A stretch of 41,880 nt of DNA from Bacteroidales bacterium (GTDB taxonomy: Bacteria; Bacteroidota; Bacteroidia; Bacteroidales; UBA932), in assembly GCA_017446775.1 (NCBI GenBank), contig JAFSQE010000002.1, positions 1 to 41,880 on the forward strand, read 5' to 3'. Both the position numbers and the translations under genes were made by a program. Below are positions 3,505 through 38,681 of the stretch, piece by piece (position 1 is the first letter of the stretch; the number at the start of each line of letters is the position of its first letter). Under the pieces are notes generated by a model. That model made no database searches, had not been told where the DNA came from, and was given only the letters and a program-made list of their open reading frames with translations.

Positions 3505-3508
3505 GGAG
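3503..3508 (+). promoter_or_regulatory. Shine-Dalgarno-like site of rpmD
   Basis: AAGGAG overlaps the rpsE stop codon and lies 9 bases before the rpmD ATG at 3518, an arrangement compatible with translational coupling. Confidence 0.5.
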
Positions 3509-3517
3509 ATCCAGACT

Positions 3518-3700
3518 ATGGCAAAAGTAAAAGTAACTCAGATTAAGAGCATAGCCAGTGCAACCAAGCGTCAGCAGGCCAACATGCAGTGCCTGGGCAT
3601 TCACAGAATGAACCAGACCGTTGAGGTCGAGCTCACCCCTGTAACCGCTGGAATGATAGAAAAGGTTCGTCATCTTGTAAAAGTTGAAGAAGTAAAATAG
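3518..3700 (+). CDS. rpmD: 50S ribosomal protein L30
   Basis: Small large-subunit protein uL30, 60 residues, with the usual pattern of basic residues followed by LGIHRMNQTVEVE and a C-terminal IEKVRHLVKVEE helix. It lies in its normal place between rpsE and rplO. The rplO gene follows after 13 bases with a GGGAGA site (3700-3705). Confidence 0.97.
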   Translation: MAKVKVTQIKSIASATKRQQANMQCLGIHRMNQTVEVELTPVTAGMIEKVRHLVKVEEVK

Positions 3701-3713
3701 GGAGAAGACAGCA

Positions 3714-4160
3714 ATGAAATTACACAATCTCAAACCGGCAGAAGGTTCAACGAAGAAGCCCAAACGCATCGGTCGCGGCGAAGGTTCGGGACATGGCGGA
3801 ACAGCCACCCGTGGTAACAAAGGCGCCCAGGCCCGCAGCGGTTATTCGCACAAAATCGGATTCGAAGGCGGTCAGATGCCTATTCAGCGCCGTCTCCCCA
3901 AATACGGATTCAAGAACCCCACAAGAGTAGAATATGCAGTAGTTAATGTCTCCGCTCTCCAGGCACTCAGCGAGAAGATCGGGTCGACCACCATCACCAT
4001 AGACGATATGGTAGTGGCTGGGCTCGTATCCCCGACCTCCCTGGTCAAGGTGCTTGGCAACGGCGAGCTTACTGCAAAGCTGGATGTCAGTGCAAATGCA
4101 TTCAGCAAGAGCGCAATCGCCAAGATAGAGGCTAAAGAGGGCACAACAACAGTTCTTTAA
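3714..4160 (+). CDS. rplO: 50S ribosomal protein L15
   Basis: Large-subunit assembly protein uL15. The Gly/Arg-rich N-terminal extension that threads into 23S rRNA (about residues 12-50, GRGEGSGHGGTATRGNKGAQAR) and the globular C-terminal part are both present. The 148 residues are typical. The secY gene follows after 5 bases. Confidence 0.98.
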   Translation: MKLHNLKPAEGSTKKPKRIGRGEGSGHGGTATRGNKGAQARSGYSHKIGFEGGQMPIQRRLPKYGFKNPTRVEYAVVNVSALQALSEKIGSTTITIDDMVVAGLVSPTSLVKVLGNGELTAKLDVSANAFSKSAIAKIEAKEGTTTVL

Positions 4161-4165
4161 CGACT

Positions 4166-16812: not shown

Positions 16813-16844
16813 AATAATACGCTTATAACTGTTAAATGCCAAAA

Positions 16845-22302: not shown

Positions 22303-22345
22303 CAAAAAAAACGACTGCCCGGAACACGCGGTGCCGGACAGTCGT
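22303..22345 (-). terminator. Intrinsic terminator ending the ribose/ADP-ribosyl operon
   Basis: The arms 22311-22322 and 22334-22345 pair over 12 positions with one mismatch. On the minus strand they are followed by a run of eight T. It lies 18 bases after the stop of the DUF4595-like gene and marks the end of the long operon. Confidence 0.88.
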
Positions 22346-22363
22346 AGAAAAAGCTGACGTGGA

Positions 22364-23134
22364 TTATTTGATTGCTTCCCAGGTGAAGGTGAATTCGCAG
22401 TCAAACTCAAGAGCGCCGGGTTCGCCATAGCTCTTGGTCTCCTTGGTGATGGCACCGGTAGCTGCATCATACTCATATGCGTACTCTGCAAGTGCAGTTC
22501 TGTCTGCCCACTGTGCGGTAGCGCAGCAGTATCTGGAAGCACGGCCAACGATACCGGACTCATAGAGCCATCTCTTGAGACCTGCATCCTCTGCCCACTC
22601 GGTGTGAACGGCGCCGACGTTTTCTTTATCGGTGTAGGTGTGCTCTTTGTGACGCCATGTGTCACCGTCGCCCTTTCTGGTCCAGTAGTCAACGCACTCG
22701 TTGGTAACGCTCTGCTGGGTAGCGTCTTCGCCGTCAACCTTTGCGGTTGCGATAAAACCGTCTACATAAGTGAGATCTACGGTCTTGTTCTTGTCGTAGT
22801 CTTTGATCTTGATTGCGAGACCATCTGCATTGAGGTCGATGTCAAAAGCGGCTTTGTCGCCATCCTTAACGGTGCACTTGTTGCCTTCGTATGTGAAGGT
22901 GAAGTTGCTGTAAACCTCGCCATTCCAGGAAGCGGCAACAGTAGCTACACGACCCTGTGCATCATAAGTGTATGCCCAAGTCTCATTGTCGTCGCCATAG
23001 ACAGCAACAAGAGTCTTCATCCTTGCAGTCTGCTTGAAAGCCTGCTCTTCGTCTTCGTTGTTGTCCTTGTCGCAGGAAACAAACATTGCTGCTACTGCGA
23101 ACAGCACGAGTGAAATGCTAAAAATCTTTTTCAT
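22364..23134 (-). CDS. DUF4595-like lipoprotein of unknown function
   Basis: A 256-residue lipoprotein: signal peptide with lipobox FVSC (Cys21) followed by a strongly acidic stretch DKDNNEDEE, which fits the Bacteroidota surface-export signal. The rest has repeated beta-strand units such as YTYDAQGRVATVAASWNG and YEYDAATGAITKETKSYG, resembling YD/RHS-type strands and the DUF4595 family. No catalytic motif is visible. It starts 19 bases after the esterase stop and is the last gene before the terminator, so it is co-transcribed with the DraG/Sus genes. A substrate-binding or structural surface role is possible but unproven. Confidence 0.8.
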   Translation of the reverse strand: MKKIFSISLVLFAVAAMFVSCDKDNNEDEEQAFKQTARMKTLVAVYGDDNETWAYTYDAQGRVATVAASWNGEVYSNFTFTYEGNKCTVKDGDKAAFDIDLNADGLAIKIKDYDKNKTVDLTYVDGFIATAKVDGEDATQQSVTNECVDYWTRKGDGDTWRHKEHTYTDKENVGAVHTEWAEDAGLKRWLYESGIVGRASRYCCATAQWADRTALAEYAYEYDAATGAITKETKSYGEPGALEFDCEFTFTWEAIK

Positions 23135-23153
23135 AAGTGTTAAATAAGATTGG

Positions 23154-24659
23154 TTAATAAATAAAAGTATTATGTAGAGTGAAAATGCAATTGATAATAT
23201 CCTGTCCGGAATCGTTTACTGAGTTGATAACCCTGTATTCGAACGGAATGCCGCCCCGCTTGCAGGTGCGGTAGAGCGTCCCGAAGTCGCGATACGATGC
23301 AGAGTCATCGGTGCAGCAGAAGCAGTACGTCTGCTCTTCGGACAAAGTGGCGGGAATGGTCCCTAACTTTGCCTCTACGAAATACAGGTTGTTGAACGAC
23401 TGCCGGTTGGCAAAAACCTTTATGCCGGCATCGCCTATGGCCATCACGCCAAGCCGCTCATAGCTGTATCCACTCAACGTTTCTGCCAAAGTCTCCTTGA
23501 AAGTGCCTTTGGAGACATCCATCGGTACTATGGCGTAAGGTTTCAGGGAATATTCCTTGAACATTGCGCCAATCAAGCTCCGGATTTTGTCTGCATCGAG
23601 CCCGTCATGGGCAAGAACCATAACGAGTTGCCCCTCTGTTACGGCATTGTATCTTTCCGAAACAAATGCTCCGGAGCTTTGAAGTGTGATTTCCGGAATA
23701 TTGTGTGTCTCTTCCAGACCGGGCCACTGGGAACCTCCGTTCATATAATAATCGAACATCGGTAAAACCTCCGTCAATGCGCCGAGCCAGTACTTGGAGG
23801 TGTGGGCTCCGTCTCCGACCCTGTATTCGTGCCTGATGCCGTTGTCGCGCATTTGAACATGGAGCGTATCGTTGGCGATAAGCAGCTGCTCCTCGTCGTC
23901 GCCGCAGGTAAAATACCAATGTACCTTCTCCAGCTCTGCCCTGTTTTCCGGTACAAACTGATAATAAGGGCAGTGCTCCATGTAATAGGGGGTTATGCGG
24001 GCTTCGCCATCCTGTCCTTTACCGCCAAAGATTCCCCCCCACTGATTGTCCCAGCCGCTCTGGGATTCGGCCATATACTGGTCGTCGGTGCGGAAAGACA
24101 TGCTTAGCGGGGCGCTGCAAAGGAAAGTTTCCGGATGCTTGAGGGCAAGTGCCATGGCGCCAAAGCCGCCCATCGAGTAACCTGTAACGGAGCGGTGCTC
24201 ACGGTCTGCTATGGTGCGGTATGTGGCGTCGATATGGGGAATCAATTCCTGGATGAACATATCCATATAGTTGAACGCCCCCGTGTAGAAGTTGCAGTAA
24301 TATGTTGTGAACCCCTGCGGGTACACATAAATCATATCAGAAAGACCCTGGTTCTCCAGTGCGAATATCTTGTCGTTGCCGTGCAGCCAGTTGCCGTTCC
24401 AGGAGTTATTGTCGTCGCCATAGCCGTGCAGCATATAAACCACGGGATACCGGCGCTCTTTGTCCGTGACGTAACTCTTGGGCAGAGTGATTGAGAAATT
24501 GACCTTACGGCCAAGAATCTGGCTCTGGATAGACAAGTCGGTGGTGTATCTCTGGAAATTCTCTCCCGGATCGGGTCCGTCCGGCTTGTCGGCATCGCAC
24601 GCGCATGCGGATACGAACGCAAGCAGCGTAATCAGTAACAGATATGGTTTATTCTTCAT
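23154..24659 (-). CDS. Lipoprotein esterase with a second, degenerate esterase domain
   Basis: A 501-residue lipoprotein (Cys19 in VSAC, then acidic residues). Residues about 40-315 form a CE1-type serine esterase: HGYGDD (78-83), nucleophile Ser162 in GYSMGGFG, acid Asp254 or 255 in CGDDEE and His286 in DGAHTS. Residues about 330-501 look like a second copy of the fold that has lost its catalytic residues: GVMAIGD (404-410) in place of GYSMGG, and EYRVINSVN (474-482) in place of EYRVGDGAH. The ATG at 24659 overlaps the end of the preceding DraG gene by 11 bases; the adjacent ATG at 24662 is also possible. The substrate may be an acyl or O-acetyl group on a ribose-containing molecule, which is inference only. 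Confidence 0.86.
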   Translation of the reverse strand: MKNKPYLLLITLLAFVSACACDADKPDGPDPGENFQRYTTDLSIQSQILGRKVNFSITLPKSYVTDKERRYPVVYMLHGYGDDNNSWNGNWLHGNDKIFALENQGLSDMIYVYPQGFTTYYCNFYTGAFNYMDMFIQELIPHIDATYRTIADREHRSVTGYSMGGFGAMALALKHPETFLCSAPLSMSFRTDDQYMAESQSGWDNQWGGIFGGKGQDGEARITPYYMEHCPYYQFVPENRAELEKVHWYFTCGDDEEQLLIANDTLHVQMRDNGIRHEYRVGDGAHTSKYWLGALTEVLPMFDYYMNGGSQWPGLEETHNIPEITLQSSGAFVSERYNAVTEGQLVMVLAHDGLDADKIRSLIGAMFKEYSLKPYAIVPMDVSKGTFKETLAETLSGYSYERLGVMAIGDAGIKVFANRQSFNNLYFVEAKLGTIPATLSEEQTYCFCCTDDSASYRDFGTLYRTCKRGGIPFEYRVINSVNDSGQDIINCIFTLHNTFIY

Positions 24660-26163
24660 CATAAACAACCATTTCAGATGCGTAAATCTCGTAATCGGGG
24701 TGGGGATTGTTCAAGCGCAGGGTGAGGGTGTGTTCTCCACTTGCAAAACAGTATTTTGAGAAAATCTCGTACTTGCGTTTGATATAGTCTATCGGCATGT
24801 TAAAGTTCTCTACCTGCTCGCCGTCTATCAGGGCGGTTATGTTGGCAACGTAGCTGTCGTCGGCATGGCCGGTTTTGCGCACTGAGCCCTCCACCACTAT
24901 GCTGTTGCCCTTGAAACTGAGCGAAACACTGTCGGTGAAAGCCTTCTTGAGCACCCGCTTCTCTACCGGTTTAATCCCCTCAAAACTTTGCTCCCAGCGT
25001 ACTGCCTGCGGAGTTTCCAACTCTATATAAATGCAATCGTCCCCCTCTTTCTCACTTTTTGGCGCAATAATTTTCACAAGTTCCAGGTTGGCCCAGCAAA
25101 CATCTTCCAGACACAGTCTGGTGTAGGGGAAGTTGATATACTTGATGCGCTCGACTCCCTTCTTCCACTCGTCGGGGATGGCGTCGTAGCCGTACATCAC
25201 TCCCAGAATACCTGCAGCCGATGCCGGATTGCAGTCGGAATCGTTGCCGCACCGGGTGGCGATGTCCATCGTTTTAAAAAAGTCTCCTGCACCGTAAAGC
25301 AGGCCGATAACCACAAACGCAGAGTTGATAGTGGCGTCTATGTTGAAGCCGTTCCAGACCCCCTCGGGGCAGCCGATGTCGTTGGCGTGGCGGTTGGTGA
25401 CCTCGAACCAGCACTGCTTCCAGTCGTCGGGATACATCTTCCAGTATTTGATGACATCGGATATGGTACTGTGGAACTTGGTCCCCTCCGGGATGGTCTT
25501 CAGCGCTTCGCAGACCACGGTGGGGATGTCATCGCACACATACGCCAGACAGTACATGGCACCGATATACACGCCGCCGTACCATCCGTCGCCGTAGTTC
25601 ATGATATGCCCGATGCGGTCGGAGAGTTCCGATGCCTTGTTCACCTGCCCGGGATAGAGCATGCCTATGAAATCGGCCTCAATCTGGAAGTCGATATCAT
25701 CTGCGTGTGGATTGTACATCCAGTGACCCGATTCGGGGGCGCCACGGCCGTTAAGGATGTTGTACCGCGCCGCCTGGTTGGCGTGCCACAGCTTGTAGTC
25801 GGCATTCGCAAAGGCCTCGGCATAACAGTCGGCAGGGGCGTCGATGCCATACTCCAGCATCGTCTCCAGAAAGGTCAGGTCCATGTACACGTCATCGTAC
25901 AGGCCGGGGTCTTCGATAAAGGTATCGTAGATGTAATCGTCGTACCAGGGGATGGGAATCTCTTCCATTATGATTCCACCCTTGTACTTGAACTCTGTGG
26001 GGCCGCCGTAGGTGCAGCCTATGGTCTGGCCGTACCACCCGCCGCGTATCTTGTCCATCAGTGTGGCGGAATCCATTTTGACCGTCTCCCCATAGGGGAT
26101 TGCGGGCTTACAGGTGCAGGCCGTCAGGATAAGGAGAGAAAGAAGTATGTAGAATTTTTTCAA
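24649..26163 (-). CDS. ADP-ribosylglycohydrolase-family lipoprotein (copy 1)
   Basis: A 504-residue DraG/ARH-type protein; family members cleave N- or O-glycosidic bonds to ADP-ribose using two Mg ions. A lipobox LTAC at Cys16 predicts membrane anchoring outside the cytoplasm. The catalytic domain spans about residues 32-340. Metal-site motifs are GLYDDVYMD (Asp90, Asp91, Asp95) and GNDSDCN (Asp308, Asp310); compared with the canonical TDD and DxDT, the Thr positions are Tyr and Cys. HANQAARYNI and NPHADDIDFQIEADF are shared with copy 2. A C-terminal beta-sandwich (about 370-504) resembles that of copy 2. It starts 7 bases after copy 2. A substrate other than protein-bound ADP-ribose is possible. 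Confidence 0.88.
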   Translation of the reverse strand: MKKFYILLSLLILTACTCKPAIPYGETVKMDSATLMDKIRGGWYGQTIGCTYGGPTEFKYKGGIIMEEIPIPWYDDYIYDTFIEDPGLYDDVYMDLTFLETMLEYGIDAPADCYAEAFANADYKLWHANQAARYNILNGRGAPESGHWMYNPHADDIDFQIEADFIGMLYPGQVNKASELSDRIGHIMNYGDGWYGGVYIGAMYCLAYVCDDIPTVVCEALKTIPEGTKFHSTISDVIKYWKMYPDDWKQCWFEVTNRHANDIGCPEGVWNGFNIDATINSAFVVIGLLYGAGDFFKTMDIATRCGNDSDCNPASAAGILGVMYGYDAIPDEWKKGVERIKYINFPYTRLCLEDVCWANLELVKIIAPKSEKEGDDCIYIELETPQAVRWEQSFEGIKPVEKRVLKKAFTDSVSLSFKGNSIVVEGSVRKTGHADDSYVANITALIDGEQVENFNMPIDYIKRKYEIFSKYCFASGEHTLTLRLNNPHPDYEIYASEMVVYDEE

Positions 26164-26170
26164 GGGATAA

Positions 26171-27778
26171 TCAGTTATGATAATAAACGTCTTCTATAGG
26201 TTTGTCGCCGTAATACTGTATGGCGTTGATTCGTAGCAGATAGGTGTCGGGCTTGGGGTTGCGCCATACCATCTTCACGTTGTGGCGGCCCGGTTCCATG
26301 CAGTATTTCCATGCCGGCTCCAGTTTGCGGGATGTACCCTTCATAGGGAGCATGGAAACCTGGTCCAGGGAGCCGTCTATCCAAACCTCAATCTCCGCCA
26401 CGTAATCGTCGTCTTCTTCTGCCAGGGCAAAGACCTCGCTGCCCACGTGCTTCTTGCTCACACGGGCGGCGTAGTCTGCGGTGATGCCTCGCAGGCATAC
26501 CAGATTGCCCCAGATTACGAAGCCGTTGCCCAAGAAGTCAAACTCGTAGGTGTCGCTCATCCAGTCGTCTTTCTGGTCGCGGTAGATGGGATAAGTGTCG
26601 GTGAAATTCTGCTCCAGTGGGAGTATCTCAACCGGTTTAAGCGGTATGGTGACGGAACTGTCGGTAACCTCGCCGCCGGAAAGTGAAATCAACTGCAGCG
26701 CCTGGTTAAAGGAGTATTCGCTCCCCTTGGCCAGCGAGACATCGGTCCCTTCAAAATCGAGGTCCCAAATCTCCATTACTGGATCTTTCCAGAATGCAGG
26801 CATCCCCTCCAGACCGAGCACTACGCCCAGCACGCCACCCACGGTGGCGGGGTTGCAGTCGGAGTCCTGACCGCAGCGGGTCGCAATCTCCAGGGAGCGG
26901 CCAAAGTCACCGCCGCCGTACAGCAGACCCATAGCCACGTAGGCAGAATTGATCTTGGCGTCGATGTCAAAGCTCAGGAAAACCCCCTTGGGACAACCTG
27001 TGTCGCAGCCCCACTTTTTGAGAATCTCAAACCAGGCCTGCTTCCAGTCAGAAGGATACTTCTTGTGGAATACGCGCACATCGTTCACGCACTGCCAGAA
27101 GGTACTCTCCTGTGGAATTCCCTCCAGCGCCATGTCAACAATCTTTGCCGGGTCGCTCTCTATGAAAGCGGCGCTGTAGAGGCCCGCCACAAAGGCTCCG
27201 CCGTAAAAGCCGTCGCCGCTGTTCATTATGTGCCCCACGCGGTTGGCAATATCCAGCGCCTGATCAAGCATCCCGGGCGCCATCAACCCCACAAAGTCGG
27301 CCTCGATCTGGAAGTCGAGATCGTCTGCATGCGGATTGTTCTTCCAGTTACCCGATTCGGGCGGCATGATGCCCTGGCGGATATTGTAGCGGGCGGCCTG
27401 GTTGGCGTGGGCCAGATGATACGGAGCGTATGCGAACCGCATTCCCAACTGCTCGGAAGTGGCATCCAAGCCCAGTTGTTCGAAGGCCTCTGCAAAGGTA
27501 AGGTCGTTGTAAACGTCGTCGAACAGGCCCGGCTTGCGGTCCCACCAGTATTTGACATATCCCTCGCCCCAGCTGATGGGCTGGCTGTCCGGAATCAGGG
27601 TACCGGTGAACTTGAATTCGGTTGGAGCTCCGTACACCACGCCTATCGTCTGGCCTGCCCACCCGCCGCGTATTTTGTCCATAAGGGCTTCGCGAGAAAG
27701 GTTAACGCTCTGCGGAGCCTTGGGGGCGCAACCGGCAAGTAGCAAAAGCGCCAGAAGTATTATGCTATTTCGCTTCAT
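26171..27778 (-). CDS. ADP-ribosylglycohydrolase-family lipoprotein (copy 2)
   Basis: A 535-residue close paralog of copy 1, with a very good lipobox LAGC (Cys17). The catalytic domain (about 30-340) contains LMDKIRGGWAGQTIG, GLFDDVYND (Asp87, Asp88, Asp92) and GQDSDCN (Asp305, Asp307). The C-terminal sandwich (about 385-535) has the same IDG...RK...KYC...GxH...NPKPD pattern as copy 1 but with an insert of about 30 residues near 445-475. Its start overlaps the end of copy 3 by 14 bases, so translation is probably coupled. Residues after Cys17 are basic (APKAP), suggesting periplasmic rather than surface location. Confidence 0.88.
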   Translation of the reverse strand: MKRNSIILLALLLLAGCAPKAPQSVNLSREALMDKIRGGWAGQTIGVVYGAPTEFKFTGTLIPDSQPISWGEGYVKYWWDRKPGLFDDVYNDLTFAEAFEQLGLDATSEQLGMRFAYAPYHLAHANQAARYNIRQGIMPPESGNWKNNPHADDLDFQIEADFVGLMAPGMLDQALDIANRVGHIMNSGDGFYGGAFVAGLYSAAFIESDPAKIVDMALEGIPQESTFWQCVNDVRVFHKKYPSDWKQAWFEILKKWGCDTGCPKGVFLSFDIDAKINSAYVAMGLLYGGGDFGRSLEIATRCGQDSDCNPATVGGVLGVVLGLEGMPAFWKDPVMEIWDLDFEGTDVSLAKGSEYSFNQALQLISLSGGEVTDSSVTIPLKPVEILPLEQNFTDTYPIYRDQKDDWMSDTYEFDFLGNGFVIWGNLVCLRGITADYAARVSKKHVGSEVFALAEEDDDYVAEIEVWIDGSLDQVSMLPMKGTSRKLEPAWKYCMEPGRHNVKMVWRNPKPDTYLLRINAIQYYGDKPIEDVYYHN

Positions 27779-29531
27779 AAACCTGCAATTCGGTAATGGA
27801 GATAAAGGCGCTTACATCCTTGGTATACTTATGCCAGTGAATCAGAACGGCATCGTCGCCGATAACACGTACGGCCGTGGTGGTAACGGCGGGGAAGGTG
27901 AACACGAATTCGGCGTTGTGCGGCTGGAAGAATACTTCGTCGCAGAAAGGCCAGTCGGGGGTAACGGCGGCCTCAACCGGTTGCCAGTTGCCCGCCTCGT
28001 CGAGATATTCAACGTGCAGGTTGCTGTACCAGCCGCCGAACTCCTCCAGCGGACCGTAGTGGAACGATACCATGTCGGTGGTAATGGGGTTATCCCAGCG
28101 GTAGCCGAAATAATCCTGTTTTGGTGCGTTGGATTTCTCTCCGAGTGAGTAGAATGCAGCCCCGGGGCCACCCACAACACCGTCGTTGATAACATCTACC
28201 GTGTATGCACGGTATGTCTTGGGTATCGTAAGCCAGCAGGAATCAAGGGTCGCCACATCGGTTTCGCGGGTCAGCGCCAGTATTTCTGCCGCTTCGCCTG
28301 CCATATTGCGTCCGCGTTCGGCAGGGAGTTCGAAGTTCATCGCAGACTCCTTTGCGGGCTGGAAGCGGGCCTTTGTGTTGATGGTGTAAATCGTCTCACC
28401 GTTCTCTTGACGCACCTTGCCGCCGCGCTCCAGAATATTCTTTTCTGCGATCACAACGGTCCGCTCTATGATATCTTCTATAGACGCATCGGGCATGTCG
28501 TAGCGGGTTACATTGATATAGCGGTCGTTGAACGGCTTGGTCCAATGCTCATAGGGCATGGCACGGTCCAGCGGGACGCTGCCCACACCGTTGATGACGC
28601 CCAGCAGGCCGCAGATTGTGGCGGTCTGGTTATCGCAGTCAAAGCCCAGGGCGCAGCCGATATTCAGGGTTTTCTCGATGTCCCCGTCGCCGTACAGCAG
28701 GGCCAGGATGCCCATCGCACCGTTGAGGTCGGCGTTCCAGATGCTACGGGTGATGTCGGGTTCGTTTACGTACAGCTCGTCTGCAATCACTTTCCGGGAA
28801 GCTTTCCAGTCGTCGGGATGCAGCTGCCAGAGTTCCAGGCATTCATCGATAATGGCGCGGAAGCGGTCCCCCTTGGGGAGATACCCCTTGGCGTGACGTA
28901 CCAGAGTGGGGATATCACTCTCGAAGAAAGCTTCGGAATACATCGATCCGTAGACCACGGTGGGAGATGCGGCCCAGTCGTCGCTGGTGATGCGGGCTGC
29001 CCAGTCGGAGATGCCGGCGGCGTAGTCCGGCATGCCCGGGGCGGTATATGCCCAGATCTCGTTGATAAGCTGAGGGTCGATCTGGAACCAGTGCGGGTTA
29101 TACTCCTTTTTGCCGGTGTAGGGTGGCTTGAGGCCGTAGTGCATCAGCCCGAGGGCGGCACGGTTGGCCAGCCAAACCCGGTCGCGGATATGGTACATCC
29201 AGCTCTCCTTAACCTGATCGTATGTGGGGTTTACGCCGTGCTTCTCCATCATCAGCAGGTAGAGATACTCCACGTCTGTGTCATCGTCAGAAAAGGCACC
29301 GTCCACCGCCTCCATCTTGCGCATCGCCTTGTTGAACACAAACGGCCCCTGGCCTGGCTCATCCACAAACTTGTTTTCGTATTCAAGCCCGTAGATGTTG
29401 CCCACCATCTGGCCGATCCAGGCACCGGCAATCTTCTCCCTGAGCTCTGTGCGGGTAATCTCCTTCTTGCCGCAATCGGCACAGGAGGCCAGCATCAGGC
29501 AGAGAATTGATATGGTGAATAATCTTTTCAT
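27765..29531 (-). CDS. ADP-ribosylglycohydrolase-family lipoprotein (copy 3) with C-terminal discoidin-like domain
   Basis: A 588-residue divergent member of the family, lipobox LASC at Cys17. The catalytic domain (about 27-345) has the first metal motif in near-canonical form, SDDDTD (81-86), and the second as GFDCDNQTA (Asp298, Asp300, with Asn301 where Thr is usual). It lacks the HANQAARYNI block typical of copies 1 and 2, having WLANRAALGLMHYG instead. The C-terminal region (about 420-588), ending in FISITELQVYEAK, looks like an F5/8 type C (discoidin) sugar-binding domain. Its ATG shares one base with the SusD stop codon (TAATG), indicating coupled translation. Confidence 0.88.
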   Translation of the reverse strand: MKRLFTISILCLMLASCADCGKKEITRTELREKIAGAWIGQMVGNIYGLEYENKFVDEPGQGPFVFNKAMRKMEAVDGAFSDDDTDVEYLYLLMMEKHGVNPTYDQVKESWMYHIRDRVWLANRAALGLMHYGLKPPYTGKKEYNPHWFQIDPQLINEIWAYTAPGMPDYAAGISDWAARITSDDWAASPTVVYGSMYSEAFFESDIPTLVRHAKGYLPKGDRFRAIIDECLELWQLHPDDWKASRKVIADELYVNEPDITRSIWNADLNGAMGILALLYGDGDIEKTLNIGCALGFDCDNQTATICGLLGVINGVGSVPLDRAMPYEHWTKPFNDRYINVTRYDMPDASIEDIIERTVVIAEKNILERGGKVRQENGETIYTINTKARFQPAKESAMNFELPAERGRNMAGEAAEILALTRETDVATLDSCWLTIPKTYRAYTVDVINDGVVGGPGAAFYSLGEKSNAPKQDYFGYRWDNPITTDMVSFHYGPLEEFGGWYSNLHVEYLDEAGNWQPVEAAVTPDWPFCDEVFFQPHNAEFVFTFPAVTTTAVRVIGDDAVLIHWHKYTKDVSAFISITELQVYEAK

Positions 29532-31090: not shown

Positions 31091-31102
31091 ATGCTCAAAG
31101 TG

Positions 31103-33997
31103 TTAGAAGTTGACTTTTGCGCCAAGGGTGAATACCCGTGTGCGTGGATAGTATGCAAGAGGCTCGATGCCGGGAGCCAGGCCGCTGAGCGATACCTCCG
31201 GGTCTACACCCTTGTAGCCTGTGATTGTGAGCAGGTTCTGCCCGGTGAGGTACAAAGATGCCCCCTTGAGCAGGCTCTCCTTCCTGACAGGGATGATGTA
31301 CGACAGCGAAACGTTGTCGAGCTTTACGAAAGAAGCATCTTCAAGATAGTAGTCAGAATAGGTAACCTTGCCCACGAAATCGGTGTGATCCAGCCATGAT
31401 GCCAGGATATTCTTCTGTCCGAGCTCTGAGATATTCTCATATACGGCTCTCATCTGGTTGAAGACTTTGCCCCCGATAGAGCTGCGGAGAGTGGCGCTGA
31501 GCGAGAAGTTGCCAAACCTTACGGCGTTGCTCCAGCCCAGTGTGAAGAGCGGATATGCGCTCCCAAGCTTTATCCAGTCGGTCTCGCGGTTTTGCTTAAC
31601 CCTTACAGAGCCGCCGCCGTTGAGTCCGTTGTACTCCGGCCCGTAGAAGGTGCCGATGCTTTCGCCCTCGATAAGCCTCTGGCTGTATGCGCCCACAGGG
31701 GTGTTGATCCAGCCTACCCTGTATTCCTGGCCCTGGAACTCCTCGTTGGTAAAGCTTATCAGCTTGTTGGCGTTACTTGCAAATACAAGGGATGTATTCC
31801 ACTCAAGCCTGTCGTTTTTGACGGGAATGCCGGCCAGAGTGACCTCGATACCGCGGTTGCTGATGGCGCCCACGTTTGCGAAGTAGGTGCTGTAGTCGTA
31901 TGGCGGGACAGGGACCTCGTAATTGTAAAGCAGGTTGGTGGTCTTGCGGTAATAGTAGTCGATGGATCCGGAAATCCTCCCCTTAAGGAAAGAGAAATCG
32001 GCTCCGGCATTGAACTCGGCCTTCTTCTCCCAAGCGAGGTCCGGGTTGGCGTTGCTTGCGGGAGCATAGGCGTGAGCCCACTGTCCGTCGTAATAGAAGC
32101 TGCCCGATGTCTTCACAAGGAAGAGTGACTTGTAGCTGGCAAAGTCCTGGTTGCCTGTAACGCCGTAACCAGTCCTGAGCTTGAGGTCGTCGAGCCAGCT
32201 GACATCTTTCAGGAAATCTTCCTGGGACATGCGCCAGCCGATGCTCACTGCGGGGAATAGACCCCACTTGTTGTTTGCGCCAAACTTGGAGGAGCCATCG
32301 TAGCGCAGCGATACGGAAGCGAGGTATTTCTCATCGTAATTATACATTGCACGACCGAAGAAGGCGATATATCTGCTGGATTCACGGTAAGAATCCATGC
32401 TTGCCTTGCCGGCCTTGAGTGCAGAACCAGCCTCGATGTTGTTGGTCTTGAAGAAGTCCACGTCAAACCCGTAGTTGCTCATATAGGACTCTGTCTCCCC
32501 GAGCTGCTGGTATGCATAGCCGCCCACTACCTGAATGGAGTGGCGGTCTATCTTCTTTCTGTATTGAACGGTACTTTCCCACTGGAGATCTTCCCAGTTG
32601 TGCCCGGAAATCTCTGCGATACCCTTGTTGCCGGTCTCGCCGGGATAGTAACGTGTCTTGTAGTCGTGGTTCTCGAAGCGTCCGTTGTTGTAGCTGATAA
32701 AATTTTCCCACTTGAGTCCGGGAACCGGAAGGATGTTGAGTGTAAACCTGCCGTTGACGCCGATTCGGTTGACCTTGGACTGACTCTGGCGTTCGTTAAG
32801 CATTGCCACGGGATTGTAGTAATCCATACCCTCTACGGTAAAGTAGCCGCCGTTTCTGGTGTTTGTCTCGTCGTAGACGGGCTCCGTGGGGTTGTGGAAG
32901 AACGCCTGGCGGAAGATGCCGGAGCGGGTCCCTTCATACACCCTGTGTGTATAGAGCATATTGATGTCCACGGTCAGCCACCCCTCAAGCGACTCCTGGT
33001 GGATGTTGGTCTTGAAGAGATATTTGTCGGCGTTGTTGTTGCGGAGCATACCCTGGTTCTGCTCTATGTTGAGCACGGTGCGGTGGGAGAAAGACTGGGA
33101 ACCGCCGGATATTGCAAGGCTGTGCTTGTGGCTTATAGGTGTTCTGGTAACTTCGTCGAACCAGTCGGTTTCGGCACCGTACAGGGAAGCGGCCGATGCG
33201 GGTTTATAGGTTTCTATGGTCTGTTTGAACTGGCTGGCAGTCATCGGAACCGCACGGGAGAGAAGCGTCTGGACAGAGATCTGACCGTCGTAATCTACCT
33301 GTGTCTTGCCAGCTTTCGCCCTTTTTGTGGTGATGATAATCACACCGTTGGTACCACGGGTACCGTAGATGGCAGCGGCAGAACCGTCTTTGAGGACGTC
33401 GAAGGTCTCGACCTCCTGGAAGTTGATGGTGCTCAGATCGGCACCAACCACGCCGTCTATGATAATCAGGGGTCCCTGGCCGGCAGAGAGGGTGTTGGTT
33501 CCGCGGAGAAGGATCTCGTAAGAGCCGTTGGGGTCGCCACCGTTGGGGTTGGAGATGGTAAGACCGGCCACCTTGCCCTGCAGCATCCCCGATACATCGG
33601 AGAATGCGCCTTTATCCAGTTCGTCGCTCCGGATGGAGGTTACACTGCCGGTAACCTCTTTCTTGGTGGTTGTGCCGTAACCGATTACCACCGTTTCGTC
33701 AAGCATGAGCGCCTTGGAAGGGGTCATCTTTATATCGATGGGGGCCATCTTCTCTGTAATGGCAAAGGTGAAATCTTCGTAGCCCATGTAAGAGACCACG
33801 ACCTTTTCGCCTGCTCTGGCCTTGAGCATGAACTTACCATCCAGATCGCTGGTGGCATAGTCCTTACCCGCAATCAGCGCCGCACCGGGCAGCGGCTCTC
33901 CGTTCTCGTCGGATACACGCCCGGTCACGGTCACGTTCTGCGCAATCGCCGTCCAAGCCAAAAGGACGGCGGCAAAAGTGAGTAAAAGCTTTTTCAT
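31103..33997 (-). CDS. susC: SusC/RagA-family TonB-dependent outer-membrane transporter
   Basis: A 964-residue TonB-dependent importer. In order: signal peptide (1-19, AIA cleavage), carboxypeptidase-regulatory-like domain (about 22-100, GRVSDENGEPLPGAALIAG and DGKFML), a Ton-box-like DETVVIGYGT (about 100-109), plug (about 115-235, with LRGTNTLSAGQGPLIIIDGV and AAIYGTRGTNGVIIITTK) and a 22-strand barrel ending in RVFTLGAKVNF. It is paired with SusD directly downstream. It follows the inner-membrane transporter by 12 bases. The inferred cargo is ribose or a riboside. Confidence 0.95.
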   Translation of the reverse strand: MKKLLLTFAAVLLAWTAIAQNVTVTGRVSDENGEPLPGAALIAGKDYATSDLDGKFMLKARAGEKVVVSYMGYEDFTFAITEKMAPIDIKMTPSKALMLDETVVIGYGTTTKKEVTGSVTSIRSDELDKGAFSDVSGMLQGKVAGLTISNPNGGDPNGSYEILLRGTNTLSAGQGPLIIIDGVVGADLSTINFQEVETFDVLKDGSAAAIYGTRGTNGVIIITTKRAKAGKTQVDYDGQISVQTLLSRAVPMTASQFKQTIETYKPASAASLYGAETDWFDEVTRTPISHKHSLAISGGSQSFSHRTVLNIEQNQGMLRNNNADKYLFKTNIHQESLEGWLTVDINMLYTHRVYEGTRSGIFRQAFFHNPTEPVYDETNTRNGGYFTVEGMDYYNPVAMLNERQSQSKVNRIGVNGRFTLNILPVPGLKWENFISYNNGRFENHDYKTRYYPGETGNKGIAEISGHNWEDLQWESTVQYRKKIDRHSIQVVGGYAYQQLGETESYMSNYGFDVDFFKTNNIEAGSALKAGKASMDSYRESSRYIAFFGRAMYNYDEKYLASVSLRYDGSSKFGANNKWGLFPAVSIGWRMSQEDFLKDVSWLDDLKLRTGYGVTGNQDFASYKSLFLVKTSGSFYYDGQWAHAYAPASNANPDLAWEKKAEFNAGADFSFLKGRISGSIDYYYRKTTNLLYNYEVPVPPYDYSTYFANVGAISNRGIEVTLAGIPVKNDRLEWNTSLVFASNANKLISFTNEEFQGQEYRVGWINTPVGAYSQRLIEGESIGTFYGPEYNGLNGGGSVRVKQNRETDWIKLGSAYPLFTLGWSNAVRFGNFSLSATLRSSIGGKVFNQMRAVYENISELGQKNILASWLDHTDFVGKVTYSDYYLEDASFVKLDNVSLSYIIPVRKESLLKGASLYLTGQNLLTITGYKGVDPEVSLSGLAPGIEPLAYYPRTRVFTLGAKVNF

Positions 33998-34009
33998 GGT
34001 ACAGTATAA

Positions 34010-35023
34010 TTACATTCCGGCCATGACCACACAGGCCAGACCTGCCACAAACAGGGCGAACATGAGTGCCAGCAGCCAGTAAACCTTGGCCGGCGCACCC
34101 TTGAACTCCTTCCAGACGAATACGCCCCAGATGGCAGCCACCATGGGAGCCCCCTGGCCCAGGGCGTAAGATACTGCTGCACCGGCGGTGCCTGCGCAGA
34201 TATAGTTAAGCGATGTACCCAGCGCCCAGATGCAGCCGCCCAGCACGCCTACCAGATGGGTCTTGAGATTACCCGCAAAATATTGCTTGTAGGTTACAGG
34301 TTCTCCAACAAAGGGTTTCTTCATCACAATGGTGTTCACGATAAAGTTGCTCAGGAATACGCCAAGCGCAAAGATTACCATTGCGGTGTAGGGGGTCATC
34401 TTGCCTGCGGCGGGAGCTGCAAAGTTGTCCAGGTCCACACCGTTGTAAACCAGTGCAGAGAAGAACGACATGATGATACCTGCCAGAAGTGCCAGTATGA
34501 TGCCCTTGCGGTTCTGTTTGGGGTCACGCTGCTCAGACGATACCTTGCCGGAAGCGATGCCGTTGAACACGACCGCCAGCACAACCAGCACTACGCCGAC
34601 CCAGAGCAGGGTGGTGTTCTGGCCTGCGGTGGGGTGGAGCAGCAGGTTGTTGAGCACGCCCATAACCAGTGCGATGCCCACACCCAGCGGGAAAGCTACC
34701 GCCATGCCTGCCAGCGATACCGATGCGGAGAGCAGGATGTTGGAGACGTTGAACACGACGGCGCCAAGAACGACCCATCCGATGCTTGCCCAGCTAACCT
34801 GTGCAAGGTCCTGGACAAACGGGCGTCCCTGGCTGCCGATGCTGCCGGCGGTGAATGCCAGAATCAGCGAGAAGATGACCATGCCGATAACATAGTCCCA
34901 ATAGAAAAGTTCGTATCTCCAGCTCTTTGCGGCGAGCTTCTGGGTGTTGCCCCAGGAACCCCAGCAGAGCATGGTGACAAAGCAGAATATTACTGCAAGT
35001 GTATAACTGCCAACGATGTACAT
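34010..35023 (-). CDS. Ten-helix sugar transporter, probable ribose transporter (RusT-like)
   Basis: A 337-residue inner-membrane protein with about ten hydrophobic segments. It resembles the DMT superfamily glucose/ribose-porter and RhaT-type sugar transporters (CWGSWGNTQKLA near residue 20, AVAFPLGVGIALVMGVLNN near 108, ALGTSLNYICAGTAGAAVSYALGQGAPMVAAIWGVFVWKEF near 265-305). It lies between ribokinase (21-base gap) and SusC, the position expected for the transporter that moves ribose from periplasm to cytoplasm in rus loci. Family membership is from recognition; L-rhamnose specificity is less likely because no rhamnose catabolic gene is nearby. Confidence 0.85.
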   Translation of the reverse strand: MYIVGSYTLAVIFCFVTMLCWGSWGNTQKLAAKSWRYELFYWDYVIGMVIFSLILAFTAGSIGSQGRPFVQDLAQVSWASIGWVVLGAVVFNVSNILLSASVSLAGMAVAFPLGVGIALVMGVLNNLLLHPTAGQNTTLLWVGVVLVVLAVVFNGIASGKVSSEQRDPKQNRKGIILALLAGIIMSFFSALVYNGVDLDNFAAPAAGKMTPYTAMVIFALGVFLSNFIVNTIVMKKPFVGEPVTYKQYFAGNLKTHLVGVLGGCIWALGTSLNYICAGTAGAAVSYALGQGAPMVAAIWGVFVWKEFKGAPAKVYWLLALMFALFVAGLACVVMAGM

Positions 35024-35044
35024 AGTAGTATTTTTTAATTGTTA

Positions 35045-35944
35045 TTATTCAAGTTCTTTACGGGTAGGTATGGAAGGCTGCGCGCCCATGCGGGTCACGG
35101 AGATAGCTGCCGCCTTGCTTGCGAAGCTCACTGCCTTCTCCAGCGGCTGGCCTTCCGACAGGGCTACCATAAGCGCCCCGTTGTAGGTGTCGCCGGCGCC
35201 CGTGGTGTCCATCGCCTTGACCTTCATGGTGGGCACTACGCTGCTGCCGGAAGGAGTCCTTACGTAGGAACCCTTGCTCCCGAGCGTAATCACCACATTC
35301 TCCACGCCCTTTGCCATGAGGCACTCTGCGGCGCGGTCCAGGTCGGCGTCGCTTTGGATGTCGATGCCCGTGAGCTGGCGGCACTCGGTCTTGTTGGGGG
35401 TAATCAGATACAGCCCCTTGAGCAGTTTGTCGTTGAGGTATGCCGCAGGAGCGGGGTTGATGATGACCTTCTTGCCATACTTTTTGCCCAGCGCAGCAGC
35501 GTATTCGATCACCGGCATGGGGATTTCAAGCTGCATGAGGATGTACTCCGCTTCGCGGAAAAGTGCGTCGGCAGCATCGATATCGGCGGTGCTGAGGGCG
35601 TAGTTGGCGCCCGATGCCACCACTATGGAGTTTTCGCCGTCGGCAGCCACGCTGATAAGCGCCACACCGCTGGGAGATGTCTCGTCCATACGGATATGCG
35701 AGATGTCCATATTCTCTTTCTTGTAGTTCTCGATGGACTGACGGCCGTACATATCGTTACCTACGCAGGCGATGAAGGCAACGTCACCGCCCAGTCGCGA
35801 TGCCGCCACGGCCTGGTTGGCACCCTTGCCACCTGCCGCCATCATGAAATTGTCACCCAGTGTGGTTTCTCCCGGCTCCGGGATATGGCTGGTTTTTACA
35901 ACAAGATCGGTATTTGAACTACCGATGATAAGGATTTTGCTCAT
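35045..35944 (-). CDS. rbsK: Ribokinase
   Basis: A 299-residue PfkB-family sugar kinase that phosphorylates ribose to ribose 5-phosphate in the cytoplasm. The N-terminal sugar-binding sequences (GSSNTDLVVKTSHIPEPGET and GGKGANQAVAASRLGG at 38-53), INPAPA (162-167) and the C-terminal anion hole with catalytic Asp252 in DTTGAGDTYNGAL are all intact. Length and motifs fit RbsK better than fructokinase. It is the only cytoplasmic catabolic enzyme in the operon and the strongest pointer to ribose as end product. Confidence 0.93.
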   Translation of the reverse strand: MSKILIIGSSNTDLVVKTSHIPEPGETTLGDNFMMAAGGKGANQAVAASRLGGDVAFIACVGNDMYGRQSIENYKKENMDISHIRMDETSPSGVALISVAADGENSIVVASGANYALSTADIDAADALFREAEYILMQLEIPMPVIEYAAALGKKYGKKVIINPAPAAYLNDKLLKGLYLITPNKTECRQLTGIDIQSDADLDRAAECLMAKGVENVVITLGSKGSYVRTPSGSSVVPTMKVKAMDTTGAGDTYNGALMVALSEGQPLEKAVSFASKAAAISVTRMGAQPSIPTRKELE

Positions 35945-35991
35945 AGTATGTGATATTATTCTGTTATTCGAATCAAAGTGGCTATAGATTA

Positions 35992-35999
35992 CAAATATA
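35992..35999 (-). promoter_or_regulatory. Internal -7 box before ribokinase
   Basis: On the minus strand this is TATATTTG, an exact TAnnTTTG match, placed in the 71-base gap between the nucleoside hydrolase and ribokinase. It would give a leader of about 43 bases. It suggests that the kinase-transporter-Sus-DraG part can be transcribed separately from the three genes before it. Confidence 0.5.
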
Positions 36000-36015
36000 A
36001 AAAAAAGATGCCTTT

Positions 36016-37011
36016 TTAATGCATGTTGGCCGGTTTGCGGGTCAGGATCTCCACAAAGTGACCTTTGATTGCAGCGGCCTGCTGGGGGGTAACGGCCAAA
36101 AAGCGGCGGTTGCCGGCCGGTTCGGGTGTAAATACGGCCACGCCATCTTCGCCCACATCAATCCTGCCGGGCTCCGACAGGGTGAACCACTCGCCCCCCT
36201 CCACAGCAAACAGCGTTGCGGTCAAGTCCCAGCAAGGGCGGTCGTGAGGCATCGGGCAGTAGGCCAGATAGCCCTCGCGCATCGGGTGGGGGATGCCCCA
36301 GTCAAGGTCGTTCTCTATGCTTTCGCCGGGGTAACATACTGCGATGCCCACCTCGAAGGGCGATGTCACGATCTCCGTGGGCCATTCGGCGAACACTTTT
36401 CTGCTGGCATAAAGATCGCCCAGAAGGTTGAATTCCCCGTTGGGAGCAGACAGGCAGCCAGCCATGGTGGTAAGGGAGATGACTTTCTGCGCTACCAGCT
36501 GCGGTTCGCTCTCCAGAAGCGCGGCCAGATTGCCCAGGAAGCCTACGGAGATGATTTTTACCGATTCGTCCGGCATCCCGGAGAGGATTCTGCGGTAGAG
36601 CGTCAATGCATCCGGAAATGTGTCGCAGCGATTCAGGGTGCGCTTGAATACCGGCTGCCCTGTATCGTCTTTCATGTCAGAAATCACCTCCGCAAAGTTT
36701 ACTCCCCCTGTCTCTGCCGGAGCGCCGCCGCATCGGACTGCTATCGGTACCTGATGGCCGTAGAAGGTGTTCATTATATCCACAAACTCTGCCGGAGCAC
36801 CGCCCTCCTTGTTTATCATTATGGCCAGCAGATTGACCTTGCCATCATCGACATACTTGTAGAGCATGTCCAGCGCCATGGCGTCGTCTATGTCGTTGCC
36901 CATATCGGTCTCGAAGATGACATTGACCGGAGCGTCGGCCAAATGCCCCGGGTGGCAACAGGTCGCCAGCATCAGCACCAGCAGGGCAGAAAACAAGTGT
37001 TTTTTATCCAT
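36016..37011 (-). CDS. Nucleoside hydrolase lipoprotein (IunH family)
   Basis: A 331-residue hydrolase expected to split ribonucleosides into base and ribose. The Ca-binding Asp cluster is seen in ETDMGNDIDDAMALDML (Asp36, Asp40, Asp42, Asp43); later conserved stretches include SVGFLGNLAALLE and a C-terminal CWDLTATLFAVEG. The N-terminus is a lipoprotein signal with LATC at Cys18 (a second Cys follows), so it acts outside the inner membrane, unlike cytoplasmic IunH of enteric bacteria. It begins 2 bases after the EEP-family gene. This matches the nucleoside hydrolase of rus loci. The preferred nucleoside is not predictable. Confidence 0.9.
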   Translation of the reverse strand: MDKKHLFSALLVLMLATCCHPGHLADAPVNVIFETDMGNDIDDAMALDMLYKYVDDGKVNLLAIMINKEGGAPAEFVDIMNTFYGHQVPIAVRCGGAPAETGGVNFAEVISDMKDDTGQPVFKRTLNRCDTFPDALTLYRRILSGMPDESVKIISVGFLGNLAALLESEPQLVAQKVISLTTMAGCLSAPNGEFNLLGDLYASRKVFAEWPTEIVTSPFEVGIAVCYPGESIENDLDWGIPHPMREGYLAYCPMPHDRPCWDLTATLFAVEGGEWFTLSEPGRIDVGEDGVAVFTPEPAGNRRFLAVTPQQAAAIKGHFVEILTRKPANMH

Positions 37012-37013
37012 CT

Positions 37014-37904
37014 TTATTTCTTGCGGGTGAAGCGGATCTTTACCACTACCGGCAAGTGGTCTGAGGTATCCTTGTAACTGATGATGCCGGTGGGAAGGGT
37101 GTTATCTGTAACCTCTACCTGTGCGGCTCCCTTGTAGCAGAAGACATAGTCCAGGCACATGGTAGGGTAACTCGACGACCAGCTGAGCTCCGGTTTGGAA
37201 AGGCGTGTCCAGCAGCGGTCCATCTCGTTTATGGTGGCGGTGCCGGGGTCGGTGTTAAAGTCGCCGGCAATTATCACCGGCTTGGAGTATCCGTCGTAAT
37301 GCTCTTCGAACCACTGGTTAATATACACCGCCTGCTCGTAAGAGGGTTCTCCCGGAGGGCCGAAGTCCAGATGGGTAGCGCAGAACACAATATCCTTAGT
37401 CTCAACCACGGCCACGCTGCGAGGCTCGTGACCGCTGCCGCGGGGGATGGGCAGGGTATAGGCATCCAGCAGCGGAAAACTGCATATTGCTCCGTTGCCG
37501 TATCCGCCGCCCGCAAAATCGAATGCAGAGGCAAAGTGGTAACTCCACCCTCCCAGCTTTTCTGCCACATCCCTCAGCTGGAAGTTGCTGTGGCGCTGGT
37601 TGCAGCTGTCCACCTCGTTCAGCCCGGCAAAATCGGCGCCGACCTGCTCCAGGAAGAGGGCGATGTCGTCCAGTCGGTCGCCTCCGTGACCCATATTGGC
37701 CACGTTGTAGGTTACCAGCGTAAGCGATACCTCTTCCTCGTTGTGGCTGCGGTTGTACGGGATATGCCGCTCGCCGCCCCGCGGACGGGCCCAGATAGAG
37801 CCTATCTGTTCAAACTCGTCCGGGTCCCAGCTGCCGGAATCGCAGCTGGCAGAGGCGAGCCACAGCATCAGTATTGCAGAGATAAAATGCAGGACAGGGT
37901 GCAT
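37014..37904 (-). CDS. Endonuclease/exonuclease/phosphatase-family lipoprotein
   Basis: A 296-residue member of the DNase I-like superfamily (nucleases, phosphodiesterases and phosphatases). Lipobox SASC at Cys21 is followed by DSGSWDPDEFE, an acidic run that favours surface export. Catalytic signatures are present: VTYNVANMG, Glu in GLNEVD, His in CATHLDF, GDFNTDP and the final SDHLPV. It could cut extracellular nucleic acid or remove phosphate from nucleotides, feeding the adjacent nucleoside hydrolase, but sphingomyelinase-like activity cannot be excluded. The start at 37904 was chosen for the signal peptide; the 71 residues upstream in frame overlap the thioesterase gene and are not protein-like. 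Confidence 0.88.
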   Translation of the reverse strand: MHPVLHFISAILMLWLASASCDSGSWDPDEFEQIGSIWARPRGGERHIPYNRSHNEEEVSLTLVTYNVANMGHGGDRLDDIALFLEQVGADFAGLNEVDSCNQRHSNFQLRDVAEKLGGWSYHFASAFDFAGGGYGNGAICSFPLLDAYTLPIPRGSGHEPRSVAVVETKDIVFCATHLDFGPPGEPSYEQAVYINQWFEEHYDGYSKPVIIAGDFNTDPGTATINEMDRCWTRLSKPELSWSSSYPTMCLDYVFCYKGAAQVEVTDNTLPTGIISYKDTSDHLPVVVKIRFTRKK

Positions 37905-37915
37905 ATCAGTTGTAT

Positions 37916-38665
37916 TTATTGTTTCCAGATGATTTTTGCGCGGGCACAGTCGCTGCCGTCGGCGGCCTGCACGGCGAAAAGGGTGGAGCCGTCGTCCATG
38001 TCGCGGTAAAGGATATCCACCGTTTCCCCGTAACGGACCTCCTGGGCATAAATAATCTCCAGGCGGGCGATCTGTCGTCCATATACCTTCTCTATCGGGT
38101 ATGAGTCCAGCATCCACTGCAGATATTGGACGCTGTTGGTGTGGCCGTTGTAATCTATGTCGCTGTAAGATACCTTGATGGAATGTCTGCTGGTGGCCTC
38201 CGCTGTCGTCAGGTGCTTCAGGCGGCCGGGCATCGCCACCGGTACGCTTATTCCCGTGGCGCAGTCAGAGATGGTGGTATCGGAAGTAATTGACACCGGG
38301 TGACGGGTCTCCAGATCCAGGATCGCCCATTCGCTGGTTGCGTGGCCTACCGGCTGGCCGGCTTCATTGCGGATTGCGAAATTACGGGATGTGATAAGGC
38401 TGTTCACCTTCTCTACCCAGGTCTCGATGGTTATAAGGTCGTCTTCCTGCGGCATCTGGCTTATCTCAAAGGCCATTTTCAGCAGGATCCAGCTCACTCC
38501 GCCGGTATCCATCAGCTTGAAAGTGCCAAAATTGCGGTCGTTTGCGGCGCGGCCGGCGGTGTTCATCAGCACCCGCTCCATGGCCACCGCACGGAAGTGG
38601 CGTTTGCCGTCGAGGTCCTGCGGCAACACCCGGTAGGTGTAGGTGTTTGTCTTTGAAGAGTCCAT
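37916..38665 (-). CDS. Acyl-ACP thioesterase family protein
   Basis: A 249-residue cytoplasmic protein with two hotdog domains that releases fatty acids from acyl carrier protein. The N-terminal half (about 10-145) has AMERVLMNTAGRAANDRNFG and the central WVEKVNSLITSRNFAIRN; the C-terminal half has the conserved DIDYNGHTNSVQYLQWMLD, whose Asn and His match the FatA/FatB catalytic pair. The start at 38665 fits the overlapping divergent promoter region; the upstream in-frame extension runs antisense to tsaE and is rejected. It precedes the EEP-family gene by 11 bases, so a lipid enzyme seems to lead a ribose-scavenging operon, perhaps by chance. Confidence 0.88.
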   Translation of the reverse strand: MDSSKTNTYTYRVLPQDLDGKRHFRAVAMERVLMNTAGRAANDRNFGTFKLMDTGGVSWILLKMAFEISQMPQEDDLITIETWVEKVNSLITSRNFAIRNEAGQPVGHATSEWAILDLETRHPVSITSDTTISDCATGISVPVAMPGRLKHLTTAEATSRHSIKVSYSDIDYNGHTNSVQYLQWMLDSYPIEKVYGRQIARLEIIYAQEVRYGETVDILYRDMDDGSTLFAVQAADGSDCARAKIIWKQ

Positions 38666-38673
38666 AACAAACA

Positions 38674-38681
38674 CAAATTTA
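38674..38681 (-). promoter_or_regulatory. -7 box for the thioesterase gene
   Basis: On the minus strand this reads TAAATTTG, an exact TAnnTTTG match, 8 bases before the ATG at 38665. It abuts the plus-strand -7 box of tsaE. The leader would be only about 4 bases. Confidence 0.5.

Follow-up and report, generated by a model that had tools for sequence, protein, structure and literature searches.

Gene content of the locus

A candidate ribose-utilization (RUS) operon lies on the minus strand of a 41,880-nucleotide stretch of DNA (contig JAFSQE010000002.1; the whole stretch is hereafter called the window), which constitutes contig C25 of the 35-contig, 2.0-Mb genome of a rumen bacterium of the order Bacteroidales. 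The core operon encodes, in this order, a ribokinase (RK), a RusT-like transporter (RT), SusC, SusD, three lipoproteins of the DraG/ADP-ribosylhydrolase (ARH) family (G1, G2 and G3), an esterase (EstA) and a small variable lipoprotein (YD). RK (35045..35944) scores 368 bits on NCBIfam PRK11142 (cut-off 341) and 367 bits on TIGR02152 (cut-off 299.65), the cut-off being throughout the score threshold of the Pfam or NCBIfam model concerned. RT (34010..35023) is a sugar transporter of the GRP/ureide-permease type (Pfam Ureide_permease, 80.5 bits; cut-off 27). The SusC-type TonB-dependent transporter (31103..33997) was assigned through NCBIfam TIGR04056 (719 bits) and a phylogenetic tree, and the SusD-type lipoprotein (29531..31090) through Pfam SusD_RagB (73.7 bits). 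G1 (27765..29531; extra C-terminal part, motifs SDDD and DxDN), G2 (26171..27778; motifs FDD and DSDCN) and G3 (24649..26163; ARH3-like domain and jelly roll in its fold model) match PF03747 with 98–134 bits (cut-off 26.2). EstA (23154..24668), assigned by Pfam and alignment, is a PF00756 esterase lipoprotein in which S165 and H289 are invariant across 21 rows; its C-terminal domain has no Pfam match. YD (22364..23134), of the DUF4595/YD-repeat type by Pfam, matches RHS_repeat (24.1 bits; cut-off 22). The initial annotation of this DNA had called it DUF4595-like, which holds for its relative in locus L042 (37.3 bits; cut-off 34.2), the single match among five YD copies scanned, and not for the window copy, which misses DUF4595. 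A strict lipobox pattern is matched by SusD, G1, G2, G3 and EstA; YD and the upstream neighbours NH and EEP described below match a looser pattern only. The operon ends at an intrinsic terminator (22303..22345, minus strand) that had already been proposed and whose folding energy of −27.9 kcal/mol (z −5.3) was equalled by none of 200 shuffles; a simple terminator scan did not list it, and Rfam gave no match within 20000–41880.

Named genomes scanned with G1 yielded 40 sister loci (L042–L081), whose open frames were labelled through BLAST against the window genes. Nearly all belong to metagenome-assembled genomes (MAGs) of Bacteroidales or Bacteroidia, with the rumen or other ruminant gut compartments as common sources; L077, an 85% match, is labelled Clostridia and holds just a 40-residue fragment of SusC. 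Of the 27 loci that extend 12.5 kb or more beyond the start of SusC, 23 keep the order SusC, SusD, G1, G2, G3, EstA, YD, and the remaining four have a split-frame G1, a split-frame G2, two EstA genes or a second SusC after EstA. Downstream of YD, L042, L043, L044, L046 and L067 carry a gene of one cluster, the L043 copy of which is of the GH127 beta-L-arabinofuranosidase type.

Relationship to ribose-utilization loci

RK adjoins the RusT-type transporter in the window, the pairing by which a RUS locus was recognized, and RT is 55% identical to a GRP transporter of Parabacteroides distasonis that is encoded beside rbsK and a BT2802-family gene (636 bits; cut-off 550). In a sample of 295 genomes of the order, RT is present in 37, and 40 transporter places were fetched. 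Five of these places, from five other families, read SusD-G1-G2-G3-EstA-EstA-RT-YD, with RK, SusC and a divergent gene of about 512–533 residues upstream; together with L189 they form a second group of six three-DraG loci. The divergent gene of L131 matches the NCBIfam BT2802-family 'ribose utilization protein' with 656 bits (cut-off 550), and Pfam gave no match for that of L131 or L132. BT2802 is, we take it, RusR. The family identity comes from NCBIfam for this one of the five second-group genes and, for the others, from a model built from six BT2802-type genes, these five included, which matches 7 further places among the 40. The BT2802 family had no match in the genome of the window, and control genomes were silent in the same search. 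Of 99 genomes from the family of the window, six have it above cut-off, and the two fetched have the order regulator-SusC-SusD-RK-G3-RT.

SusC, the one protein of the pair for which a tree was built, was compared within its own genome, the fetched loci and the sample of 295 genomes, in each of which two candidates were scored. In the 43-row tree, one clade (100/96) unites nine SusC proteins of the window's group, five of the second group, that of L039 (same family as the window; order SusC-SusD-RK-G3-RT) and the second SusC of L079; this RUS clade is defined in a tree that does not contain the RusC of Bacteroides thetaiotaomicron. The nearest SusC outside the clade in the same genome (L138; 41% identity) is followed by genes that look amylase-like by eye. 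The six best matches outside the genome (48–51%) all belong to three-DraG loci, including L189, which lacks RT between EstA and YD, and identity then drops to 37–41%. Within this limited sample SusC does not group with pairs for unrelated glycans, and the kinship with RUS loci suggested in the initial annotation is supported by gene content, the SusC clade and the presence elsewhere of a BT2802-family gene next to this cassette. At the DNA level the window SusC has short matches only to plasmid records. One record of the plasmid collection, NZ_CP141089.1 (H9), encodes a protein 51% identical to RT that is unannotated there; its label, a 4.9-Mb E. coli plasmid, looks doubtful.

Three lineages of DraG-family lipoproteins

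The tree of DraG-family proteins indicates that G1, G2 and G3 are three old lineages. G2 forms one clade (98/98), and G3 forms another (100/99) that includes one single-DraG row, L038; the 12 rows of G1 are grouped at just 55/89, with a Flammeovirga sequence joining at 100/100, and the tree carries a warning of long branches meeting. A recent expansion in this genome, as first proposed for this variant, is rejected on this basis. Of the three, G3 is the closest to the lone DraG found in simpler RUS loci. A fourth DraG-family gene of the same genome (L036; G000:C6:75548-76498) lies beside SusC/SusD and esterase-type genes and groups, on a long branch, with two divergent single DraGs.

The ARH fold is recognized in G3 by its model, in which the ARH3-like domain is joined to a jelly roll resembling CE2/CBM36, and in G1 and G2 by Pfam only; the model of G1 was poor (pLDDT 53.9) and was set aside. 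Sequence searches of the PDB with G3 or G1 alone gave no match, and profile searches gave none for G1 and a best E value of 0.0085 for G3/G2. In DraG/ARH enzymes two motifs, each with a pair of Asp residues, form the metal site together with Thr residues on their flanks. Of 37 cassette rows, 36 retain the metal-site Asp residues and the remaining one is a fragment; the Thr positions are replaced by Ser/Asn in G1 and by Phe or Tyr/Cys in G2/G3.

Apparent matched exchange of the surface genes

Co-variation was analysed in 20 loci (19 and the window), giving 190 pairs that are not independent of one another. Median protein identity is 0.84–0.89 for RT, G1, G2 and G3, and 0.63 for SusC, 0.52 for SusD, 0.46 for EstA and 0.29 for YD. 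After regression on the mean of RT, G1, G2 and G3, the identities of SusC, SusD, EstA and YD correlate with one another at 0.67–0.96, with a Mantel p of 0.001 (999 permutations) in each of the six pairs. The tree of SusC, SusD, EstA and YD and that of RT, G1, G2 and G3 reject each other (p-AU 6e-56 and 3e-63), and the conserved-block tree is rejected by SusC-SusD and by EstA-YD by 3097–5418 log units. Seven pairs have a conserved-block identity of at least 0.92, and in five of them the surface genes average 0.46–0.64.

The pattern is also seen in DNA. L051 and L074 are 93–97% identical in RK, RT and G1–G3, and 72% in SusC, 70% in SusD, 64% in EstA and 59% in YD; their upstream flanks are 81–98% identical in 400-nt windows, about 2 kb just past YD barely aligns and identity further out is 91–96%. 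L049 and L076 show the reverse, with SusC, SusD, EstA and YD at 99–100%, G1 at 84%, G2 at 87%, G3 at 93% and RT at 90%. The mosaic edges lie near gene edges, except for the first L051/L074 break, which falls inside SusC. From these comparisons, recombination appears to have exchanged SusC-SusD and EstA-YD together, as one matched set; the history of G1–G3 is a different one. Surface proteins in general evolve fast, and faster evolution without any exchange might seem sufficient; the L049/L076 pair is the opposite of what it would predict, and the steep L051/L074 steps and the mutual rejection of trees likewise make it very improbable.

Other observations are less favourable to a matched exchange. 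SusC-SusD and EstA-YD reject one another's exact tree, by 364–436 log units, and two of the seven close pairs have surface genes no more divergent than the core (mean identity at least 0.90). EstA tracks SusC-SusD less tightly than YD does, being the odd member in 20 of the 28 discordant pairs among the 190, under cut-offs of our own choice. The sister loci are MAG contigs, and chimaeras could possibly mimic mosaics, a point that also counts in favour of faster evolution alone. The matched co-variation of SusC-SusD with EstA-YD is new here, which is not a claim that it is absent from print.

Operon boundary, upstream neighbours and promoter

Three further genes lie upstream of RK on the minus strand: a nucleoside hydrolase-like lipoprotein (NH; 36016..37011; Pfam, 54.1 bits; cut-off 34.2), an endonuclease/exonuclease/phosphatase lipoprotein (EEP; 37014..37904, with the start set at 37904) and an acyl-ACP thioesterase (TE; 37916..38665; family match). 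Every gene named in the initial annotation was found, each on the minus strand; TE lies inside its interval and was unmentioned. The one 71-bp gap it gave stands and lies between NH and RK (35945..36015), the other gaps were recomputed as −20 to +21, and that between EEP and TE is 11 bp. The contig also holds a serpin gene at 15559-16842 (Pfam, 295 bits), beside a rhamnosidase-type gene.

These neighbours vary among the sister loci. In the 26 that have 4.8 kb or more ahead of SusC, L077 among them, the upstream region holds RK in 25, RT in 24, a LacI gene (by motif) in 17, NH in six, TE in five and EEP in one (L052); in one of 27, L042, EEP follows YD, and NH is on the opposite strand in L075. 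L043, L044 and L046 read TE, NH, divergent LacI, RK: an RbsR-like LacI gene, with its operator, fills the place of the 71-bp gap. Because the neighbours vary and the LacI gene sits in this place, the ribose-linked unit most likely starts at RK. NH, EEP and TE are, as judged from gene order, accreted neighbours packed close in the lineage of the window, and TE is probably an unrelated housekeeping gene. A single ancestral operon from TE to YD was accordingly rejected, and with it the earlier view of one ribose operon from 38681 downwards. The ribokinases are of two kinds: those of L042, L043, L044, L046, L052 and L065 (partial) are about 90% identical to that of the window, and those of the other sister loci about 50%, though the adjoining RT is 67–96% identical.

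If EEP to YD were a single operon for breaking down nucleic acids, nucleosides, NAD or ADP-ribosylated protein, EEP would act as a nuclease or pyrophosphatase, NH as a nucleoside hydrolase, and the DraG proteins would take off ADP-ribose. The spacing of EEP and NH, 2 bp apart and directly upstream in the window, fits this reading, as do the NH gene found nearby in 11 of the 35 RT places that lack the three-DraG cassette and the DraG fold, which is that of ADP-ribosylhydrolases. The scarcity of NH and EEP in sister loci and the divergent LacI gene between NH and RK speak against it, and neither NH nor EEP is seen within the labelled stretches of the six second-group loci, of which L189 ends at RK. 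We regard such an operon as unlikely, although not negligibly so. With this distribution of NH, nucleosides or ADP-ribose as the likely ribose source, the view first favoured, is not supported.

The −7 box of Bacteroidota has the consensus TAnnTTTG. A matching promoter-like box, TATATTTG (35992..35999, minus strand), starts 55 nt before RK, and 20 of 28 sister loci have such a box, starting 38–77 nt ahead of RK; no box in the window is accompanied by a −33 element. A sigma-70 promoter scan seeks sites of another type and was set aside. Upstream of most sister operons lies a palindromic LacI operator that is new here, a CG-centred palindrome of the form GCGCAANCGNTTGCGC 43–59 nt before the first gene. 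With up to two mismatches and within 400 bp upstream, it occurs in 20 of the 31 sister loci with 400 bp available: in 18 of 19 with a LacI gene (the exception being L079) and in two of 12 without a detected one (L048 and L069). In most sister loci the RbsR-like LacI gene and palindrome stand at the position that the BT2802-family gene has in other families. The best NCBIfam match of this LacI is the RbsR family, its Pfam helix-turn-helix match is slightly below cut-off, and its two relatives in the window's own genome are 27 and 29% identical. The window holds no copy of the palindrome at up to two mismatches; like L042 (−55) and L052 (−52), it keeps the TAnnTTTG box (−55) and lacks the operator. 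Since the window has neither the LacI gene nor the operator, its operon is probably not under this repressor, and control would have been lost in the window, L042 and L052. In L056, L057, L079 and L080 a variant palindrome lacking the central CG was noted by eye upstream of RK, and the LacI-cluster gene is on the strand of the operon.

Proposed function

In the proposed mechanism, SusC and SusD, with EstA and YD as partners suggested by co-inheritance, would capture and import a ribose-bearing ligand from which EstA would remove esters. G1–G3, as non-redundant enzymes, would release ribose from alpha-riboside linkages, as their family, the fold of G3 and the metal-site Asp residues suggest; RT and RK, judged by their families, would carry ribose into the cytoplasm and phosphorylate it. 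ARH enzymes act on alpha-ribosyl bonds. Because of this chemistry and the second-group cassettes without NH or EEP, the likeliest substrate seems to be an alpha-riboside decorated with esters or a glycoconjugate that contains ribose, and not nucleosides; ADP-ribosyl groups are a possible one. That the core operon from RK to YD is a RUS variant with the mechanism, substrate and matched exchange proposed here is, on balance, fairly probable.

Several points weigh against this interpretation. The Thr replacements at the metal site mean that catalysis by G1–G3 is not assured, and the choice of an alpha-riboside rests on general ARH chemistry and the missing nucleoside hydrolase. RT scores below the NCBIfam RhaT cut-offs, the LacI of the sister loci scores 178 bits on RbsR (cut-off 382), and no LacI gene was found by motif in nine of the 26 sister loci. 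The likeness to the B. thetaiotaomicron Rus locus comes from protein families and gene content rather than direct sequence comparison. A crude charge count for a surface-export signal does not single out EstA and YD, and this signal was dropped as support for their surface location. The same sub-threshold scores of RT and LacI would suit a kinase, transporter and regulator that serve another pentose or pentitol, as would the promiscuity of PfkB kinases as a family and the one-cluster gene, GH127-type in L043, downstream in five distinct sister loci; with the ribokinase equivalogs above cut-off and the same cassette beside a BT2802-family gene in another family, an operon not meant for ribose is distinctly unlikely.

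More specifically, and tentatively, since we hold it to be considerably less likely than not, the operon may represent a RUS subtype for an alpha-ribofuranoside glycoconjugate. SusC, SusD, the esterase and the DUF4595-type lipoprotein would then form one surface machine. Strains would trade its alleles together, in two separate tracts on either side of three DraG-fold exo-ribosidases whose genes stay untouched. This subtype would be set apart by its three old DraG lineages and by the lack of a nucleoside hydrolase in other families, features that point to a ribose source other than nucleosides. Lipoprotein DraG-family enzymes would gain a testable role; a matched exchange of SusC-SusD and EstA-YD around fixed enzymes predicts contact between these lipoproteins and SusCD, and provides a natural experiment as to whether ligand, phage or immunity selects the surface alleles. 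What makes the locus interesting is less any use of nucleosides than the age of its three DraG lineages and the matched exchange at the surface.

Comparison with known systems

The Rus locus of B. thetaiotaomicron presumably contains a ribokinase, a RusT-type transporter, SusC/D and a DraG-family protein, with two ribokinases, one DraG and one nucleoside hydrolase in all. The window shares these four components, and the BT2802 family flanks the three-DraG cassette elsewhere; it differs in having one kinase, three DraG lineages, an esterase and YD, and in the lack of a BT2802-family match in its genome. An excerpt of PMC12596196 gives the Rus polysaccharide utilization locus as BT2803-2809, with RusR as the regulator and the highest activity on ribose, and the RUS paper is cited in excerpts of PMC13253324 and PMC11697453. 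Unlike the ARH3/DraG ADP-ribosylhydrolases, the cassette proteins have a lipoprotein signal, a C-terminal jelly roll (G3) and replaced metal-site Thr residues. The LacI of the sister loci resembles RbsR/LacI repressors in its best match and in the CG-centred palindrome upstream, but falls below the equivalog cut-off (178 of 382 bits), and the window is without it. The rbsK-DraG-NH-GRP cluster of P. distasonis (NZ_OY725755.1) has one DraG and a nucleoside hydrolase inside, and SusC/D, G1, G2, EstA and YD were not seen in its 23.8 kb; it shares with the three-DraG loci a BT2802-family gene, a ribokinase, a G3-type DraG and a GRP transporter.

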